DNA of 64,000 nt, taken from NCBI GenBank assembly GCA_035771165.1, contig JAWNZC010000349.1, positions 1,240,001-1,304,000 of the forward strand. Reading direction: 5' to 3'. A model generated the notes under the pieces. The model was not told the origin of the DNA. It made no database searches and saw nothing but the letters and a program-made list of their open reading frames with translations. Position 1 is the stretch's first letter. Each line of letters opens with the position of its first letter. The DNA is from Paragorgia papillata (lineage: Eukaryota > Cnidaria > Anthozoa > Scleralcyonacea > Coralliidae). Shown piece by piece: positions 3,501 through 30,900 of this stretch. Made by a program: the position numbers and the translations under genes.

Positions 3501-6500
3501 GCTGTGCACCTTGAAAGCAACTCCCATAAACATAAACCAAAAGCATACATATCAATGCGAAGAAAAGCCTCCCTTGAAAAATTGATTGCTCCTTCTAGTA
3601 CCTCAGGTGCCATGTATCGTCGCGTACCAACCTTAAAATAATTTCGGAGGGAATAAAAATGAGACATTTGCAGTCAATTTTATCCTTCCACTGTAATAAA
3701 TACAAATGAAACACAATAGAACAAAGTTTTGAAAATACATGTAATGTCTTGGTAAATGTTTAAAACACAATTGTTATTTCCCCCCATATTTTCTCATGTA
3801 AATTAGTATTAGGTTATTGCCCTGATGAAGGCCTGACTTAGCAAATAAATATTAAACACAAAACTTGAATATTATTATAATATACATGTGTAGTGGACAG
3901 ATTTTCACTTTCCCAATGACTTGTGACACGTACACTACTGTATGAATACCATTTAGATATTTTTGAATCAATACACTAGAACTGGACATGTCACCTAAAC
4001 TAGAATGTTTTGTTGTTAAGCAATAGCTGATGTTTGAAAAAGCTTGGATGAGTACAAAGTGTATGAGTCGCATTTGCAAGAAAAAGTACAGTATTAAATT
4101 TTTGTCTGGAAAGTTCAATGTTTGTGGTTTCTTCCAGTTGTTTGCAAGTAGATTTCTTGTTGGAAAATATTGTAACCATAAAAGCAGTTAAGCATTCAAA
4201 TGAACACAGGAATTACAACAATGCGGTCATCACATTAATTTTGTCATGAATATTATAAATAATCATGTGCTTTTGCTTAAGCTTCATATGTGCAATTAAG
4301 GATTTACACAATATTTGAAATCAGTCTTTGCAATAAAAATGAAGTTTGCTTGTACAGTACGATCAAAGCTTACAACATTTACATACCTGACCATGTGTAT
4401 CTCCAGGACCATCTTTACTGTCAAACTTGAGAGACAGACCAAAGTCTGAAATACAACACGTAAGGTTGTTTTTAACCAGCACATTCTTGCTTTTCATATC
4501 ACGGTGAGCAATGGAAGGTTTTAGCTTTGGTACTTCAGCATGAAGGTAGCCCAACCCTAATGCCATACCCTCTGCCATGTGACAAAGATTATCCCACGTA
4601 ATAGTATTTCCTTTCAGAAAATCAGACAGTGATCCTTTCTCGAGATACTCGGTAATTAACCACAATTGTGTCTGGTTGCCTTCTTCATGGCTCTGTGCAG
4701 CTATGAACTTTAAAATATTCTGGTGATTTAAATTACAGGTGACATATATGTCCTTCTCAGTTAATGCAGATGGAGTTGCCTTGCTGCGCTGAGTAATAGG
4801 AAAGATTTTGACTGCCACATCCACATTTCCCATTCTACCTTTTCTCACCATACCAAACTGGCCTTGGGATAATACATCCTTAAGTTGTATTGGTGGCAGT
4901 TCCTTTGTTGTTAACAAGTTCTCTGTTTCTTTGCTCTTTGAAGTGTCACCAGGAACAGATTTCGAACGTTTGTGGAAGTATATCACAACTAAAGCCACAA
5001 TCAAGACAGAGACAATACCAACAGGAACGAAAACTACAAAAATGCTTATTTCACCATTTTCTTTCTGTTCTTCTCCATCATCTTTGATACCTGTTTGTCC
5101 TATGAAAAAAAAATACAAAAAAAAATAATAACTTGTATTCTATGACTACCTCTCTGACAGCATGGAGGATAGCCCTGAAATTCACATCCAGCATCAAGGC
5201 CACTGTCAACATACTGAATTTGTTTTCATTTTGATTGCCATCCTGGCATAAAACTTATGCCATTGTTGTTGGTCACATTTTGTAGTCAATGCAGTCTTCA
5301 CAACATGACTGACTGGTCTGTTAATAATTTACAATGAAGTTTTTACATACAATATATGTATAATACAGACTTATTATAAACAGTACATGTATTTTGGAGG
5401 AAAGTGACCTTCATTTTTTGAAGGGATCAATCTTTGAAATTGCAGAAAAATAATTACTTTCAGGCCCTGAATGTCAACTCTTCTGCTGCCTTTCACTCTC
5501 TTTATAAATTATTATTATTGGTACAGGTACAGTATTATTATAATTATTATTATTATTACTATTTTATTAGAGGTGTTGGTATGACTGGATTTTAAAATAA
5601 TCACTGTACAGTCCATGCATACAGTAATTAAGTTATAATTTAAATGTTCAATGAGCGCTTACCTGATTTGGAGCCAATAAAAGTAAAATTCGCATTGCAC
5701 CTCTCAGTGTTACATGAACAAAATGAATGGTTTATTTTATCAACTCCTGTAGCTTGGCACAGGGGAGTACTACCTTCAACTCCTGAAGGTGACCAACATC
5801 CTTTTTTCAAAACTGTAATATCTCCACTTGCATTATGCCACAATACAAAACACAGAGAATCTTTACCATGTTCACATTCCATTAACAATACATTGTTATT
5901 TGGCTGTGATAAATTAAAATATTGACACTTGAAAGCAGCAATGGGAACACCTATATATATAAATATATAAAATAGTAAACATCAGGCTACTGGGTTGACA
6001 CAAAAACTCGGTTTATCTACTCTATTACCGACTTTAAAGAGAAACTTTTGAACTGGGGAAGGGAAACTTTTGAACTGGGGAACTCTACGTAGCTGGCTAC
6101 AAATCTGGGTTAAATTATTTTTGGTTTGGCTGAGGAAAAGTTATAACATTCATCTTTTATAGACACTCCAGTTCAAGATCACTGAGATAGAAAATGTTCT
6201 ATCTCAGCGATCGTGGCGATCATTGTGTTTAATATATGGAAACGGTGATTTTGCAATCTCAGTGATCTTGGCGATCAGTATGCATCCCAGCGGACCATTA
6301 AAACAATGGCCGCAGTCAACCATAGTCGCCTTAGCAATCATAATTATGGAAACAGCGACATGATTGTTGATTGTTGCAATCGCTGAACTAATTTTTGAGC
6401 GATTTTTTAGCGATTATAAGGAAACCAGGCTTCAATGTTATTAGCTACTGTAGATACAATACAATACAGTAAAATATAGTCCCAAAAATTTCAGTGGGCA

Positions 6501-21383: not shown

Positions 21384-22290
21384 GTAAGTAAAGCATTGAA
21401 TTATTTGTGTACATGCAAGATTATGCAACATTTTGGTCTCGCAATCAATCTGTATTTCTGAACTATATTTTTTCTAAAAAAATATTTTGTGAGCAATAAT
21501 TATAGCGAAGACTTGAAAACAATACAAATGATAGGACACGGATAATAAGATACAGTCTAATTTAGTTTTGCATGCATGATTTACATGCAATCAGTAGTAA
21601 AGATCTGACAGTATCCCCTCCCTATTGTTTTGTCTCCAAAACCATCAAGCTCATTTCCGAATCAGCTGTTGTTTTGATAACAATTTCTTATCCAGTTAGT
21701 ATAGTTTTCTTTTTTATTGGCTTTTCACCCAAAAAAAGAACAAGATGTGTAGAATTCTGAATTCAATAACGTTGGCCAGTAGCCGTTAAAAATATTTCAA
21801 AGTTTAAATCAGAACGTAATTTGTCGCACTGAACATAGGTAATTTGGGGCTATCCCGATCTGGGTAATTTTGACAGTGTTATACTATATCGACCGGCTGA
21901 CAGCATTGCATAACGCAAGCTATACTTAAATTAAAGCCTGGTTTCCATATAGCCGTAAGAGTCGGCGGCACGTCTGCGGCAAGCGGCAATGGTCCAATCG
22001 CATACAGCAGTTTTTATTGCTGGCTAATTCAACACTGTCTATGATTGGACCATCGCCCCTTGCCGCAGCCATGCTGCCGGCTCTAACGGCTATATGGAAA
22101 AGGTACATGCATGCAGTAGTATATCGACTTAGGGAAATGACGAAAATGGTTTCACAGCGCGTATTAATTACCCATTATCCAATTATATGACTCATATATC
22201 TATAAAAAAAAGAAAAATAACAGTCTCCTATAAAAATATGTTGACCTTTATTTGAATACGAAATAATTTACTATAGAAGCATCACATATA

Positions 22291-22332
<42 letters not shown>

Positions 22333-22353
22333 TATATGTGATGCTTCTATAGT

Positions 22354-22385
<32 letters not shown>

Positions 22386-24269
22386 ACACTCTGTTTTAAA
22401 TTGTATATATATATGCACACGGACTGATTACCTGGGCTTCAAAAGAACACGAATGACGTCATGGCCAGCAAATTTTTGAAAATATCATTTTGAAATTATA
22501 TTCTTTTCTAACTTATCTTATAAAATTATAAAACAAATAGAACATTACTGCACCTGTGCACATATATACATGTATATATATATATATATATACATGGGCC
22601 CATGCGCACTTCACGCTATCTGAATGTATTTCACCGATGCTGTCCCACATGCGGTTGTCACCGACGATCGCATGTGTATAAGTAATTGATGAAATTCATT
22701 CAGATTGTTCCAAGCTACACTGATGAGCTGTTGTACAGCGAAACACCGTGTCTGTAGATTGAACTATATATATATATATATATATATATATGTAGAGGAC
22801 ATCTTATTTTATAAATTGTATAGTATCTAAATCTCACATTCAGGATTTAATCAAAAACATAGTCAGAGCATGCGTCGACTAGCAAATTCGTTTTCCGATA
22901 AAGCCGCTTGACCTTTGATGGCGATGCTTTGGTGTCCAGGCACAAAGAATACGTCAAAATGGAACGCAAAAGCATGCACTATCAGTCTCACACTCATGCA
23001 ACTAAAATTATGACGAGTATGATTGCTGCCGGTTTTGAGGTTTTCACATTTCGGTATAAACCCAGTTTCAGACAGTTAATATATATCAGTGAGTATGATA
23101 CCGTCACTCACGAGTCTGCTCTTTCCCCTCAGAGGTAATTTCGTTCTGGACAGACAGAATCTGCGTGTTGTTGCCATGAACACACACGATATATTGTTCC
23201 GGATCTGACATCGCTACGGGATCTGATGAAAGCGTGGGTTTTGTGTACGTATAAGATGTTATATAGCTGCGTTCGTTAAGCCAAAACAAATCTATTATAT
23301 AGGGTGTATAGCCGTAAATCTGATCACCTGCGTGTTTCCCTTGCTGATCCCATGGTCCTACCTACGCTCCCATGCACCCTAGGTATAAACGGGAAATTGA
23401 ATTAGAAACTGGGAAATTTACAGTAAACAGTGACGGCGGAAGGTTATATTGGAGGGGCTAATTCATCAACTGAAGAATCATAAGGAATGTATTTTGACCC
23501 ACTTTCAATAAATTGTAGACCATTCTTAGCCCCATCTCCAGATCTCCCATCATCCCCCCCCGTCCTTGTTCCGCCACCCTTGATTTTAAAGTGTTATACT
23601 GGTGCTGCAGTTCACTTCTTGATTGCATGTTTTTAGTGTTATAACTTTAATATTACTAACATTATTTTTTACCAGGTAGTGGCATCCCGTCACGAAGAGT
23701 GTGTCTGGAGTACGACAGAATCAGTGAGAATGGTCTTAAAAATAGTACGGTTAAAAAGAAAATATGTAAAAAGTCGCAAAATATGTGTTTTATGTTACTA
23801 AAGCGACTGGTTAAAGATGGAAGAGAGAGTACTATTCTTCTCAAGCAAGATTGCTGGGGATTTGAAAACAGCCAAAACGAAACATGTGGTAGTACAGAAT
23901 GCACTTCACATAAATTGCACATAAAAGAAAATGGTGAATTTTGCTGTTGCCAAAAAGATTTATGCAACAGAAAGTTTATACCGGTGAAAACATACCCAAG
24001 ATTAGACAAAAATCAACCAACATCAGCAACAGGTTTGTAAAACTAGTCTACTTAACAAATATAAATGTATAGACTCCAATTCACGGAACGTTGTCTGAAT
24101 GTACAGTCATGCGTGAAAGCCCATTTACACTTACCAATTTTATCCGTGCTTGGACCTTGTAAATAGGTAGTCCTAGCACGCCGGATAAAATTGGTACGTA
24201 TATATACCATTTTTATCCAAGCCGTACCAACCAACCAAGCGTATAGTGTAAATGGGTTATCAATGTCAA

Positions 24270-24314
<45 letters not shown>

Positions 24315-27300
24315 ATATATAGGATGCAAATTCGAATGATTCTCTGCTTGAGCTTGATCTACAAATATTAATTGATATTGATTTCTCTTTATTTTCCTTA
24401 ATTAATTTCTCATCCCCGTCCGAGGGTCTAAAATCATCAAGAGCTGACCAGAATAAAACGAATACGTTTAATATATAAACAATATAAACACTAATACTAA
24501 TGAATTTGATCAATAGTAAATAATATTTCTCATATGTACCAACAGCGCCTTCATAACTCTTTTCACGGCCGGAAAAGAGACTAACGTTACTAAAGCGGCC
24601 GGACGTACTAATATGAGCTGCACTTTCTTCGTGATATTCCTTTGGTTTATACTTATTTACACTCGTTTTGAAGACAATCAGTGCTTTAAAGATCGTATGC
24701 ACGTACCAAGGTACAGAGAAGGCTGTTGGAGTTCGACCTGGAGATATTTTAAGCCATCTCTGTCTCCTAGGTCGACTGGTATGGATTTCAAGCGACACAC
24801 ATATCGCAAATTTACAGGCCCTGGCGGTTATATTACCGGCTTTCTACTTCTCTGTGGGGACATAATCAGCCAGCCTGGACCTACAGTCCTGTCATCTTCT
24901 CGTTCTCGCCAACAGGCCCAGTAAAACCTTGGTAAAAATATTGGAGGGGGCCCTCGCGCAAATTATGACCCGGGGCCCGTTCTGGCTCTCGACGGCCCTG
25001 GGTACACAGTCTATAGGAAAGACCGATTAAATCGGAATGGTGGCGGGGTGCTTATCGCAATTAAATCCGATTCCTTTACATCAGTGAGAGAGTATATACC
25101 TGGCTCGGATGAGCTACGAGATTTGGAAATTGTTTGTGCCGAGGTGACCACGGGCTGTAAGCAAAAAGTACTATTTGGTTCCTGTTATCGACCACCAAAC
25201 GCCGATATAAGCTGGGCTCAAAAATTTAATATTTTTATCTTCCAAATATCCCGTGGGACTCATCATCCCGTTCAGGGGGCGCTAATGAAGTAGCTTTTGT
25301 TGATATACTTAATGATCACTATTTGTCACAAGTGAATAACTTTGTCACTCGCAGTCGGAATGTGTTAGACCTAATAATAACAAGCGTGCCAGACCGGGTT
25401 ACTGGGTTGGAAGTATTGTCTCCAGAACAGAGTGGCTTTTTTACCGATCATTGCGTATTGTCCTTCGAGTTTTCGGCCTTTATAAAATCGCCTAAAAAGA
25501 TTCATCGAACTGTGTATGATTACAAGAGAGGAGACTTCGAGGGCTTGCTCGATGCAATAAATCTGTCCTTAACGTTGGGATCTGAAGACATTAATACTGA
25601 TTGGCAAAACTGGAAAGACACATTCCTGGCGGCAGTTACAGACTATATCCCTACTGAACAGCTTAAGGGCAAATATCCTCTACCATGGATTAATGGTCCA
25701 ATTCTTAATATGATAAAGAAGAAGGACCCTGTACGGCAAAAACTCAAGAAATCGTCATTCAGTTATTTGAAGGAGAAATATAGACATCTACGCGCGGAAG
25801 TGAAGCGTATGCTATACGCGAGAGCCCCAGTAGAATCTGATTTCAAGTTAAATCCCAAACGATTTTGGTGGGTATTGAGACTAAATTCAAAGTCACGCAG
25901 CGTACCTCATCGGATCTCCATGGCAACTGGGCCTGGAAGGACTACCATGGAAGGACATGCATATCCCTCTTGGCGCCCAGGATTTTTGCTGAAGGCCCAA
26001 AGGCAACGGCGAGTCTCTTCAATCGTTATTTCGCCTCTGTGTTTACCAACAGTAGTCCCGAGTCTGAAGATTTTAATGACAACTATGATTCTAATCAGAC
26101 AGCTTTGACTGAGCTTAGATTAACTGAGGGTGAAGTATATATATCTGGATGTCTCCAAGGCAATTGGACCGGACGAGATCCCGGCAAGACTGCTCAGAGA
26201 AACAGCAGATGTTATTGCACCATCGTTATGCATCAAGTCGCTCAGTACTGGATCTATATCATAGAGTGGAAATTGGCAAACGTAGTGCCAGTATATAAAA
26301 AGGGGGACCGCGAATACACTGAAAATTACAGACCTATTTCTTTATTGTCGATAATATCGAAAGTATATTGGAACGCTGTGTCCTTAACAATATCAAAGAC
26401 TGGCTTTATAGTCTAGTTAATGACTGCCAACACGGATTCATCACTGCCAAATCCTGCATTACGAACCTTATCGAGTCTTTAGAACATATTGGGTCTGTCC
26501 TGGATAAAGGTGGACAAATTGATACAATCTATTTAGATATGTCAAAGGCCTTTGATAAGGTGGACCATGGTTTGCTTATTAAGAAGCTACGCGGGATGGG
26601 ATTTGGTGGAACGTTTTTGCAATGGTTGACAAGTTATCTGACTGATCGTCATCAACAGGTCACGGTACTCGGTGCAACATCAGATGCGATGCCGGTAACC
26701 TCAGGTGTGCCTCAGGGGTCGTTACTGGGCCGGGCCAGCATTATTCTTATTATTTGTGAATGATCAGATGATCTCCCAGAATCCGTTAAATCGAGTCGGA
26801 TAGCTATGTATGCTGATGACACCAAAGTGTTTAAGGTCATTCAAACACCGGAAGACGCCTCTGCTCTACAGGCAGATTTGACCAATCTAAGTAGGTGGTC
26901 GATGGGCTCAGGACTCGGGTTTAACGAGATCAAGTGTCATGCCCAGTCGATAACACGCAAGACAAAGCCAATTGTCACTACCTACAAGATTAATGATGTT
27001 CCACTTCAATCGACGTGCTGTGAGCCGGGATCTTGGCGTTCGTGTCTGTTCGGATCTCATGTGGAAAGAACAAGTGCTGGAGCAAACTGCACGTGCAAAC
27101 AAGCTGCTCGGATATGTGCGAAGGAACACGCATCGCATCAAGAGTGTATATCAATAAGAAGATCAATGTACCTTTCAATGGTTCGTCCACATATAGGTTA
27201 CGCCACACAGGTTTTGGGCACCTCAATCAATTGATCTAATGTTAAAGCTTGAGAGGATTCAGAGAAGCGCCACGAGATACATCTTAAATCTACCGTGTTT

Positions 27301-27929: not shown

Positions 27930-30900
27930 ATATAATTAAGTAATTAAGAAACGCTCTCTGACCAAAACAATTTATTGAACGAGCCTTCGACTGCCAGTCT
28001 GCAGTCTTTAACGGGTTAAAGATAAGTGAGAAAAACATGTGATATATATATATATACATATAGGATCTATATAAATAAAGGGATCAAATGTTGCCAACCA
28101 TGCATGGGTTTAGTTAATGACCATTCTATTGCCTTTGACAATGGAATGGTTATTGACAAAGGGACTTTCCGAAATCGCAGAACTTTAGAATCTTGGCATA
28201 CAGCAGCAACGAAAGAAGCTGACAACAATTCTAAGCCGGCACTTCCAAGACAATACTCGATTCTTTTAAAGAAGTAACCGAACACTATTTTTTTCTTTTT
28301 CTCCTACGCGCATGTCATTAATTAGCTAACAACATATTTATTTATAGATCCTATATGTATATATATCACATGTTTTTCTCACTTATCTTTAATCCGTTGA
28401 AGACTGCAGACTGGCAGTCGAAAGCTCGTTCAATTAATTGTTTTGGTCAGAGAGCGTTTCTTAATTACTTCATTATGTTTAAACCTGACCGCGCATCATC
28501 TATATTTTTATAGTTTTTAACCAGTCGGTTAAATCTGTATACAAATAATTTTGATAAAATCCAGAAGTCACTATTTGATTTGCTGTGTCATCACAGAATA
28601 TTTTTGCAACCAATGCATATATTACTGTTTCTTGAATAAGGCTCAAAAGAAACAACTCAAGAAAAGCATCTTCAAGTTTTCACTGGAATAATTTCTGTTG
28701 CCACCATACTTCTTGTTCTTACAAGTGCAATAGTAGCCATGTTGTTTTGGAAAAGAAAAATAAAGCAGAAAGAAGCTGTGGATAACGACAATTCCGGAAC
28801 TCTTCCTTTATCGGCCGAACTACATGTGAGACTTATCTGTCCAATCAATAAAGGAAAATTTGGCGAGATTTGGAAAGGGACACTTAATTCCAGACCTGTG
28901 GCGATAAAAAAGTTTCACATTTCGCATAAAAGTAGCTGGGATAACGAAAAGAACATTTACAACTTAGGTTTGGAGCATCATGGTATTTTAAAGGTAAGAT
29001 ATCAGACAGCATATAACCCTTTATACATGCAGTTACAGCACATTTGCAATGAACTTTGCAGTCAGATCTGTATGCAGAAATAACTAAATAGATGGTATGG
29101 TATGGTATGGTATGGTATGGTACGTTACGTTACGGTATGGTATGGTATGGATAGGAGTATGGGTATAGGTATGGGCATGGTATGGGTATGGTATGGTATG
29201 GTATGATATAGTATGGTATAGTATGGTATGGTATGGTATATGGTATGGTATGGTATGGTATGGTATGGTATGGTATGGTATGGTATGGTATATGCATGGT
29301 ATGGTATGTTATACTACAGCATGGTAAGAAATGATTTGGTAGAAAATGATACCTGTCATTCCGTACTCTCATACCATTTTTAAATATCTTTCAGTTTTTT
29401 GGAGCTTCAATTTATACTGAGAAAGACAGCCTAGTAAGTTTCATCTTGGTCATTGAGTATCATGCCAGGGGTTCGTTAAGATCTTGTTTACAATCCACAT
29501 CCTTTTCATGGCAAGAAATGTGCAAGATGAGTCATAGTGTAGCAGAAGCACTTGCCTACTTACACGGAGAACTAGGTAAGAAATATAATGGCTTGAATAT
29601 CGAAAATAATGGGTATAAACATGGTTTATATTTAGATAATTGCATTTTGTATTTTAATTACTGTCGTGGCAATAGAAGCGTTCCGTAAAATATTGTTGCA
29701 ATATATTCCTCAAGAACAATTCATTTGGTAAGATTCGTCGACAACTTCCTGTTTTGAATTCTGTTTTTAATTTGATTGGTGTTTGGCAAATAATCCTGTT
29801 TCTTATTGGTTGTTTAAAAACAAGAAACACTAGTCAAATTCAAAACAGGAAGTTAGCAATAATTTTCATCAAATGAATTGGTCAACTTGAGGAATATATT
29901 GCAACGATATTTTAGGAACGCTTCTATTGCCACGACAGTAAGCAAATCCCACGCAGTTCAGGCGCTCATATTCAAATTTTATTTATTTAATTAATCAATA
30001 TTTATATTCTCAGCTTTATATAATATATAAGCCGGGTATACTCATGCTTCATATATCATGCACTTAATTATTGGTTAAAACACTGACCAGTAGAATGTGA
30101 TTTCTTCTTAATAATATTTATTATCATTATTAATTAAGTTAATATGTTGGAAAAGATGTTCTATATTGCTCACAACAATTGCAGGAATATACAACGGCAC
30201 TCCTTTTTATACACCATTCTTCAAATCCAAATTTGACTTATACATTACATGCGAATATAGCAGACACACAAATGTGCACCTCCTGCTCAAATTTTTAGGT
30301 GTTCCATCTAGTCTCTCTCTGACGGAAAAGCGGAAGCGCGGGATAGAAGGGGAGGGGAGGGGAGGAGACGGACTTTGAGAAAGTCTTAAACGCACTGTAT
30401 ATAGGGATTATATAAGAAAGCTGGAAATGTTATGTACACATGCAGTTCTTCTTCAATAGCTAAAAAAATTCGATCGATGTAAATGCAAAGTAAAATCTAG
30501 TCCTGACTATCTCTACCTATCAAGAAGGATAGCTGGCGCCTGGAATAGAGTATTGGGGGTCTATAATTATAGTTTGGGGACTAGGCGGTTTTAGCCATTA
30601 TTTTAGGACGCGGATTTCGATCATATCCAGTTTTTCGGGGCGGTTTGCGGTTAACTGAGAACCGTTCGGTTGCGGGAAACTTTGAAATGTCCTCATCGGA
30701 TACGGTTATCTTTTAGAATGTAGAACGCTCTTCGCAAAACTGGCAATGATTTCTCAAAAACGCGGTTCCTAAGTGAAACAGAAAAGCGGTTGCGGTTAAA
30801 ATTGCCAAAATAAAACGGATTTCGGAAATTCAGACCCCCTATAATAGACCTCCAGTATTTCCTACTGTGTAAAGTTCAGTTTCTCATTTTAGAATTTAAA

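Follow-up and report, generated by a model that had tools for sequence, protein, structure and literature searches.

A type I hammerhead ribozyme in a 5′-truncated repeat copy, probably of a non-LTR retrozyme, at a (TA)n microsatellite of Paragorgia papillata

Results

Genes and repeats around the hammerhead

The window (the whole stretch of DNA that was analysed, 64,000 nucleotides of contig JAWNZC010000349.1 in the Paragorgia papillata assembly GCA_035771165.1) contains an open frame with an activin-receptor ectodomain at 23660–24040 on the plus strand (PF01064, E 1.4e-4, 23.2 bits, cut-off 20.9) and, downstream of it, a kinase frame at 29350–29685; the frame at 28640–29080 had no Pfam match. 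About 0.9 kb upstream of the ectodomain frame, on the same strand, lies the repeat copy described here, which carries a hammerhead ribozyme (HHR). The first-pass annotation had placed this ribozyme in an intron of the receptor gene, in the sense strand of its pre-mRNA. The shared strand holds; the intronic position is at most putative, as no upstream exon was identified.

LINE-like frames in several pieces (24520–27234) follow a (TA)n run between the receptor frames; one of them has a PF00078 reverse transcriptase match. A second activin-type receptor gene, with kinase and ectodomain frames, is present on the minus strand at 4363–5981, and the relatives of the receptors, among the matches listed, include Acropora, vertebrates and arthropods. 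Runs of (TA) of at least 6 repeats make up 0.7% of the window. A perfect inverted repeat, whose two arms of 49 nt adjoin within a (TA)n run, was seen at 22263–22360, and inverted repeats also occur near related copies elsewhere in the genome, in loci L019 and L024.

The hammerhead motif

The HHR was confirmed at 22707–22764 (plus strand), with every element and stem length that had been claimed for it. The core CTGATGA (22720–22726) is followed by a 5-bp stem II with a TGT loop (22727–22739; GCTGT/ACAGC at 22727–22731/22735–22739) and by a segment (22740–22752) that holds the GAA of the core (22740–22742), stem III (ACA/TGT at 22743–22745/22749–22751, 3 bp counting the A15.1–U16.1 pair, loop CCG) and C17, the cleavage-site base (22752). 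Stem I comprises 5 proximal bp (CTACA/TGTAG at 22715–22719/22753–22757) and 4 distal bp (GTTC/GAAC at 22707–22710/22761–22764), and the internal loop between them, also claimed previously, has 4 and 3 nt. From known HHR chemistry, the cut is predicted between 22752 and 22753. In hammerhead position numbering (for example A15.1, U16.1 and H17), the motif has the CUGANGA/GAA core, the A15.1–U16.1 pair, H17, closed stems II and III and the open stem I of a type I ribozyme, and both the stem I internal loop and the stem II loop are present.

The probability that such a motif arises by chance was evaluated with descriptors of increasing stringency. The core pattern alone (CTGATGA, GAAA and GTC with gaps) had at least one match in 14 of 100 shuffles of the window and is therefore weak evidence. 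A looser stem descriptor found 24 matches in 2.24 Gb of order-3 Markov sequence modelled on the window, or 0.0014 expected per window on both strands. The strict descriptor (stem I of at least 5 bp, stem II of at least 4, stem III of at least 3, GAAA and H17) found one site on both strands of the window and none in the same 2.24 Gb.

The Rfam models scored the motif poorly. A scan of the window at gathering level called no family; in permissive searches the best model on an 86-nt stretch was RF02275 Hammerhead_HH9, yet at 20.2 bits against a cut-off of 52 (E 0.0034), and a 501-nt stretch gave Hammerhead_3 at 16.1 bits. The covariance search that the first-pass annotation had proposed as a check thus returned nothing above threshold in the window, the outcome that it had named as speaking against a hammerhead. 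We overrule this result because the evidence described below, namely the copies across the genome and the differences in stems from one HHR family to another, outweighs poorly scoring models; a gathering score is an automatic threshold and no defining feature of the fold, and membership is not decided by it. With energy models that omit tertiary contacts, the hammerhead fold of the 58 nt has −8.8 kcal/mol relative to a minimum free energy (MFE) of −10.8 and takes up 0.1% of the ensemble, and a 69-nt stretch was no more stable than its shuffles (z 0.33; 123 of 200 equally good).

Across the HHR families of this genome, all three stems vary in both of their strands, in paired fashion. Stem I occurs as CTACA/TGTAG, CTGCA/TGCAG and CCCTG/CAGGG, stem II as GCTGT/ACAGC and GACC/GGTC, and stem III as ACA/TGT and ACG/CGT; this covariation comes from few families found with a descriptor that already demands pairing, and common descent was shown for the first two stem variants only.

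Extent of the copy in the window

The copy spans 173 nt (22595–22767, plus strand) and corresponds to positions 120–277, and then 1–15, of a 277-bp unit. Compared by BLAST with such a unit from locus L025, it was identical at 158 of 158 and 15 of 15 positions. It is therefore truncated at its 5′ end, and the unit of about 165 bp originally described between (TA)n runs is really 173 nt of a 277-nt unit, while the (TA)n on both sides was described correctly. These runs lie at 22573–22592 on the 5′ side and at 22765–22790 on the 3′ side, where GATTGAAC is joined to TATATA, an end that recurs in the genome; the closing TAT of the copy is indistinguishable from the (TA)n target. Directly 5′ of the HHR, the body of the copy forms a long imperfect hairpin (22618–22705, plus strand) in the fold of 22597–22764, which has −55.9 kcal/mol and a z of −4.17, with none of 200 shuffles equally stable. 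BLAST found no second copy within the whole window.

A tandem family of 277-bp units

Copies were located by pattern searches in the 618-Mb assembly that holds the window. A loose HHR pattern had 6,292 matches, compared to 3 for the reversed control. Among the first 100 of these, on three contigs, 94 were of the window type, including 3 diverged ones, and the remaining 6 belonged to other types. Matches of the window type are often spaced 277 bp apart, and the genome search for tandem copies, another check named at the outset, did find arrays, in which 277-bp units adjoin one another directly. One unit from L025 served as reference, numbered from the base that immediately follows the HHR cleavage site (position 1). 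The loci sampled below were drawn from the first three contigs and not at random.

The family agrees with the description of non-LTR retrozymes, having a type I HHR in tandem repeats of about 150–450 bp that form dimers to multimers, a GC content below 50% (47%) and a strongly self-paired predicted circle (MFE −90 kcal/mol, z −4.25, none of 100 shuffles as low), within which the HHR fold is incomplete. The element in the window is thus best filed as a metazoan non-LTR retrozyme, one of the two mobile-RNA options that the first-pass annotation had offered. The other, a Penelope-like terminal repeat, does not fit the directly adjacent units, although a different HHR family of this genome may be linked to Penelope-like elements.

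The retrozyme family patterns had no matches in the viral contig and genome contig collections. With a looser HHR pattern, 17 viral contigs matched (L001–L017). A 34-nt match to the HHR itself (88%, E 0.01) lies inside a MoaE-like gene of a Pelagibacter phage (MT375521.1:8784–8817) and may be a phage hammerhead.

A recurrent 3′ end in (TA)n

To characterise the junctions, HHRs of the window type were read in the window and 39 loci; L018 was left out as belonging to another family, and the remaining loci overlap these. Of 93 such HHRs, 46 continue into a next unit and 40 stop at GAAC followed by at least 10 A/T. Of the other 7, 4 are variants rich in TA, while 3 are copies of a single exception (L068–L070).

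The extents of copies were then tallied in the window and 35 loci, leaving out L052, L053, L063 and L081 as other families; opposite-strand shadow matches of the unit's own hairpin were dropped, and 70 extents were kept. It was found that 49 of the 70 stop at unit position 14 or 15, which is 12–15 nt past the HHR cleavage site. Their 5′ ends are varied, with 34 distinct ends at unit positions 2 to 259, some of which may be chaining breaks. The lengths of these 49 range from 0.13 to 7.6 units, and 15 of them exceed 287 nt; many of the insertions sampled are shorter than one unit. The 3′ flank is A/T at 10 of 10 positions in 44 of the 49, and the 5′ flank at 10 of 10 in 28 and at 8 or more in 37. 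Target-site duplications are unreadable because (TA)n makes up most of the target on either side. Genome-wide, the exact junction TGTAGATTGAACTATATATATA occurs 2,862 times, compared to 0 for the reversed control; the unit sequence GTGTCTGTAGATTGAAC may precede (TA)n, the internal TATGTA or other sequence.

The 21 extents that end elsewhere are found largely in diverged or interrupted stretches (L048, L049, L056, L074, L075 and L078), and many of these ends look like chaining breaks. Also among the 21 are three loci that are alike (L068–L070, at G000:C1:4855200-4874500); they contain a fragment that ends at position 277, the cleavage site, without (TA)n, and they perhaps represent one insertion from a cleaved RNA that was duplicated later. 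The 5′ ends recur near unit positions 79, 119–122 and 126, which may reflect stops in copying or related copies.

Likeness of units within arrays

Because copies span both sides of the cleavage site, a cut and unligated monomer is excluded as their template, which leaves a circle or an uncut multimer. We aligned 45 whole units from 13 arrays or clusters in 12 loci. The nearest neighbour of a unit was in the same array at a frequency of 0.79, relative to a mean of 0.16 and a maximum of 0.36 in 500 shuffles. The median difference between units was 0.0036 within arrays and 0.019 between them. The mean was no lower within (0.030) than between (0.029), because the pooled locus C1_420k mixes several insertions and a diverged unit. 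A table of 14 informative columns was compiled without the six units of C1_430k. In it, each of five arrays (19 units) shows an allele that all of its own units carry and that is absent elsewhere in the table. Such private alleles fit the trace expected if one circle was copied several times; copying of a multimeric transcript or later unequal exchange could also give homogeneous arrays.

Other hammerhead families

A second tandem family (L081, G000:C3:893500-895100) has a unit of about 188 bp and the stems CTGCA/TGCAG and ACG/CGT. It has in common with the 277-bp family its HHR and roughly the next 50 nt; this shared part contains a stem loop, which forms in the folds of both families. The L081 array also ends in a short TA run. 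The region shared by the two retrozyme families thus consists of the HHR, a GATTGAA motif and the stem loop.

A third family (L018, L052 and L053) has the stems CCCTG/CAGGG (one GCCTG) and GACC/GGTC and a tiny stem III. These HHRs resemble the minimal ones tied to Penelope-like elements (PLEs) in the literature and are perhaps Penelope-borne here. They are followed by GATTGCACT, which is close to GATTGAACT of the retrozyme; on their 3′ side the minimal HHRs have GATTGCACTATA.

A reverse transcriptase frame at L085:2-925 (RVT_1 at 26.6 bits, below the cut-off of 29.6, E 6e-6) is one that we take to be of the PLE type. GIY-YIG PF01541 was also found in 3 of the 120 relatives listed for this frame, and these relatives, among the matches listed, include Actinostola and Branchiostoma. 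As the coding partner of a minimal-stem-III HHR (L018, L052 and L053 being the HHRs considered) the frame is an unproven candidate: it is 6.3 kb upstream on the same strand, with other long frames between.

Discussion

Taken as a whole, these results are very probably explained by a metazoan non-LTR retrozyme whose unit has 277 nt: the HHR of the window belongs to a single 5′-truncated copy of it, which would have arisen by target-primed copying of a circle at (TA)n. The insertion data fit target-primed reverse transcription at (TA)n that began inside a circular or uncut multimeric RNA.

Three other explanations were weighed. In the first, which we consider highly improbable, the HHR would belong to the pseudo-LTR of an autonomous PLE with remains in the window. 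Type I HHRs are indeed carried by PLEs, a PLE of Anolis cuts AT-rich DNA (PMC11167929), and the genome has the putative PLE-type frame described above. In a PLE, however, a reverse transcriptase (and GIY-YIG) lies between HHR-bearing pseudo-LTRs, and the 277-bp units are directly adjacent and too short for a reverse transcriptase. The PLE hammerheads published in the accessible text of PMC7229834 and PMC7761336 are minimal, with little stem III, whereas that of the window has 3 bp, and the PLE-like HHRs of this genome belong to the third family.

Slightly less probable again is a satellite repeat that unequal exchange and the movement of neighbouring DNA have dispersed, without retrotransposition. 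The tandem arrays of up to about 7.6 units and the local clusters with mixed insertions (L048 and L049) would suit it, but a single kind of exact 3′ junction with (TA)n at 2,862 places, the varied 5′ ends in the sample and the many insertions below one unit would not. A functional intronic ribozyme, under selection and regulating the receptor transcript, is scarcely credible in spite of the intact motif and of receptor frames on the same strand: the copy is identical to a retrozyme unit elsewhere, is one among thousands of HHRs and sits in a microsatellite, and its intactness is attributable to recent insertion.

We propose the following mechanism for the retrozyme. By analogy with published work, multimeric transcripts of intact arrays would be cleaved at every HHR, and the resulting monomers would be circularised. 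An endonuclease and reverse transcriptase supplied in trans would nick a (TA)n microsatellite, and the junctions suggest that a primer with a TA end initiates synthesis within the circle at ACUAU, 12–15 nt 3′ of the cleavage site. Copying would run through the HHR and might circle several times, after which the end of the cDNA would be attached to (TA)n, in many cases where a short stretch of TA matches, as the junctions suggest. For the copy in the window, copying would have stopped at unit position 120, giving 173 nt with one complete HHR. Because this locus has one HHR, it cannot release a circle; the ribozyme, if active and transcribed, could at most cut the sense transcript at 22752/22753. 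Intact hammerheads can thus be present close to genes as insertions of a single copy; the one described here lies upstream of receptor frames.

A wider proposal is tentative, and we hold its chances to be a little under even. Retrozyme circles may be templates for target-primed, rolling-circle reverse transcription, in which a TA primer from nicked (TA)n starts at one fixed site shortly downstream of the hammerhead cut, each array being the product of one circle; the start region would be common to the two retrozyme families and resembles the GATTGCACT that follows the minimal, perhaps Penelope-borne HHRs. If the start region is truly shared in this way, a retrozyme and a Penelope element would be a matched parasite and host pair, like SINEs and LINEs.

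How animal retrozymes return to DNA, and by whose enzyme, is unsettled in the accessible literature. PMC7229834, in its accessible text, proposes that the enzyme of a LINE or PLE copies a primed retrozyme circle; the review PMC7761336 agrees, as far as its accessible text goes. Internal initiation and AT-rich cleavage have been demonstrated for a PLE (PMC11167929). The kind of retrozyme is already known, and the (TA)n insertion signature is apparently the new part: a recurrent (TA)n-joined 3′ end of retrozymes was not found described in the accessible text of these three papers, most subscription papers being outside the search. The pattern of insertion shows with unusual clarity how a retrozyme may move, and thousands of insertions that share a recurrent 3′ end and a defined target make the primer, start point and template form directly testable.

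Comparison with known systems

PMC7229834 describes, again within its accessible text, metazoan retrozymes that measure 170–400 nt and carry type I HHRs, among them some from cnidarians. The present family resembles those of Acropora millepora, Mytilus and axolotl in its type I HHR, its tandem units of 150–450 bp (here 277) in dimers to multimers, its GC content below 50%, its thousands of HHRs per genome and its strongly self-paired predicted circle. Coral units in that report have 220–245 bp and thus differ from the 277 bp here in length, the property on which they were compared. The ending of 49 of 70 extents at one internal position in (TA)n is not among the features found described in its accessible part.

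The plant LTR retrozymes, as that paper's accessible text recounts them, are likewise non-autonomous and processed by an HHR to circular RNA; unlike the family described here, they have type III HHRs, LTRs, a length of about 700 bp and a GC content above 55%. The PLE Poseidon of Anolis (PMC11167929) is alike in having an HHR followed shortly downstream, inside the RNA, by the start of reverse transcription, and in its AT-rich targets, but it encodes its own reverse transcriptase and endonuclease. Relative to Poseidon, the start suggested for the retrozyme would lie 12–15 nt beyond the point of HHR cleavage, immediately before a stem loop, and would have a TAT match to the target.
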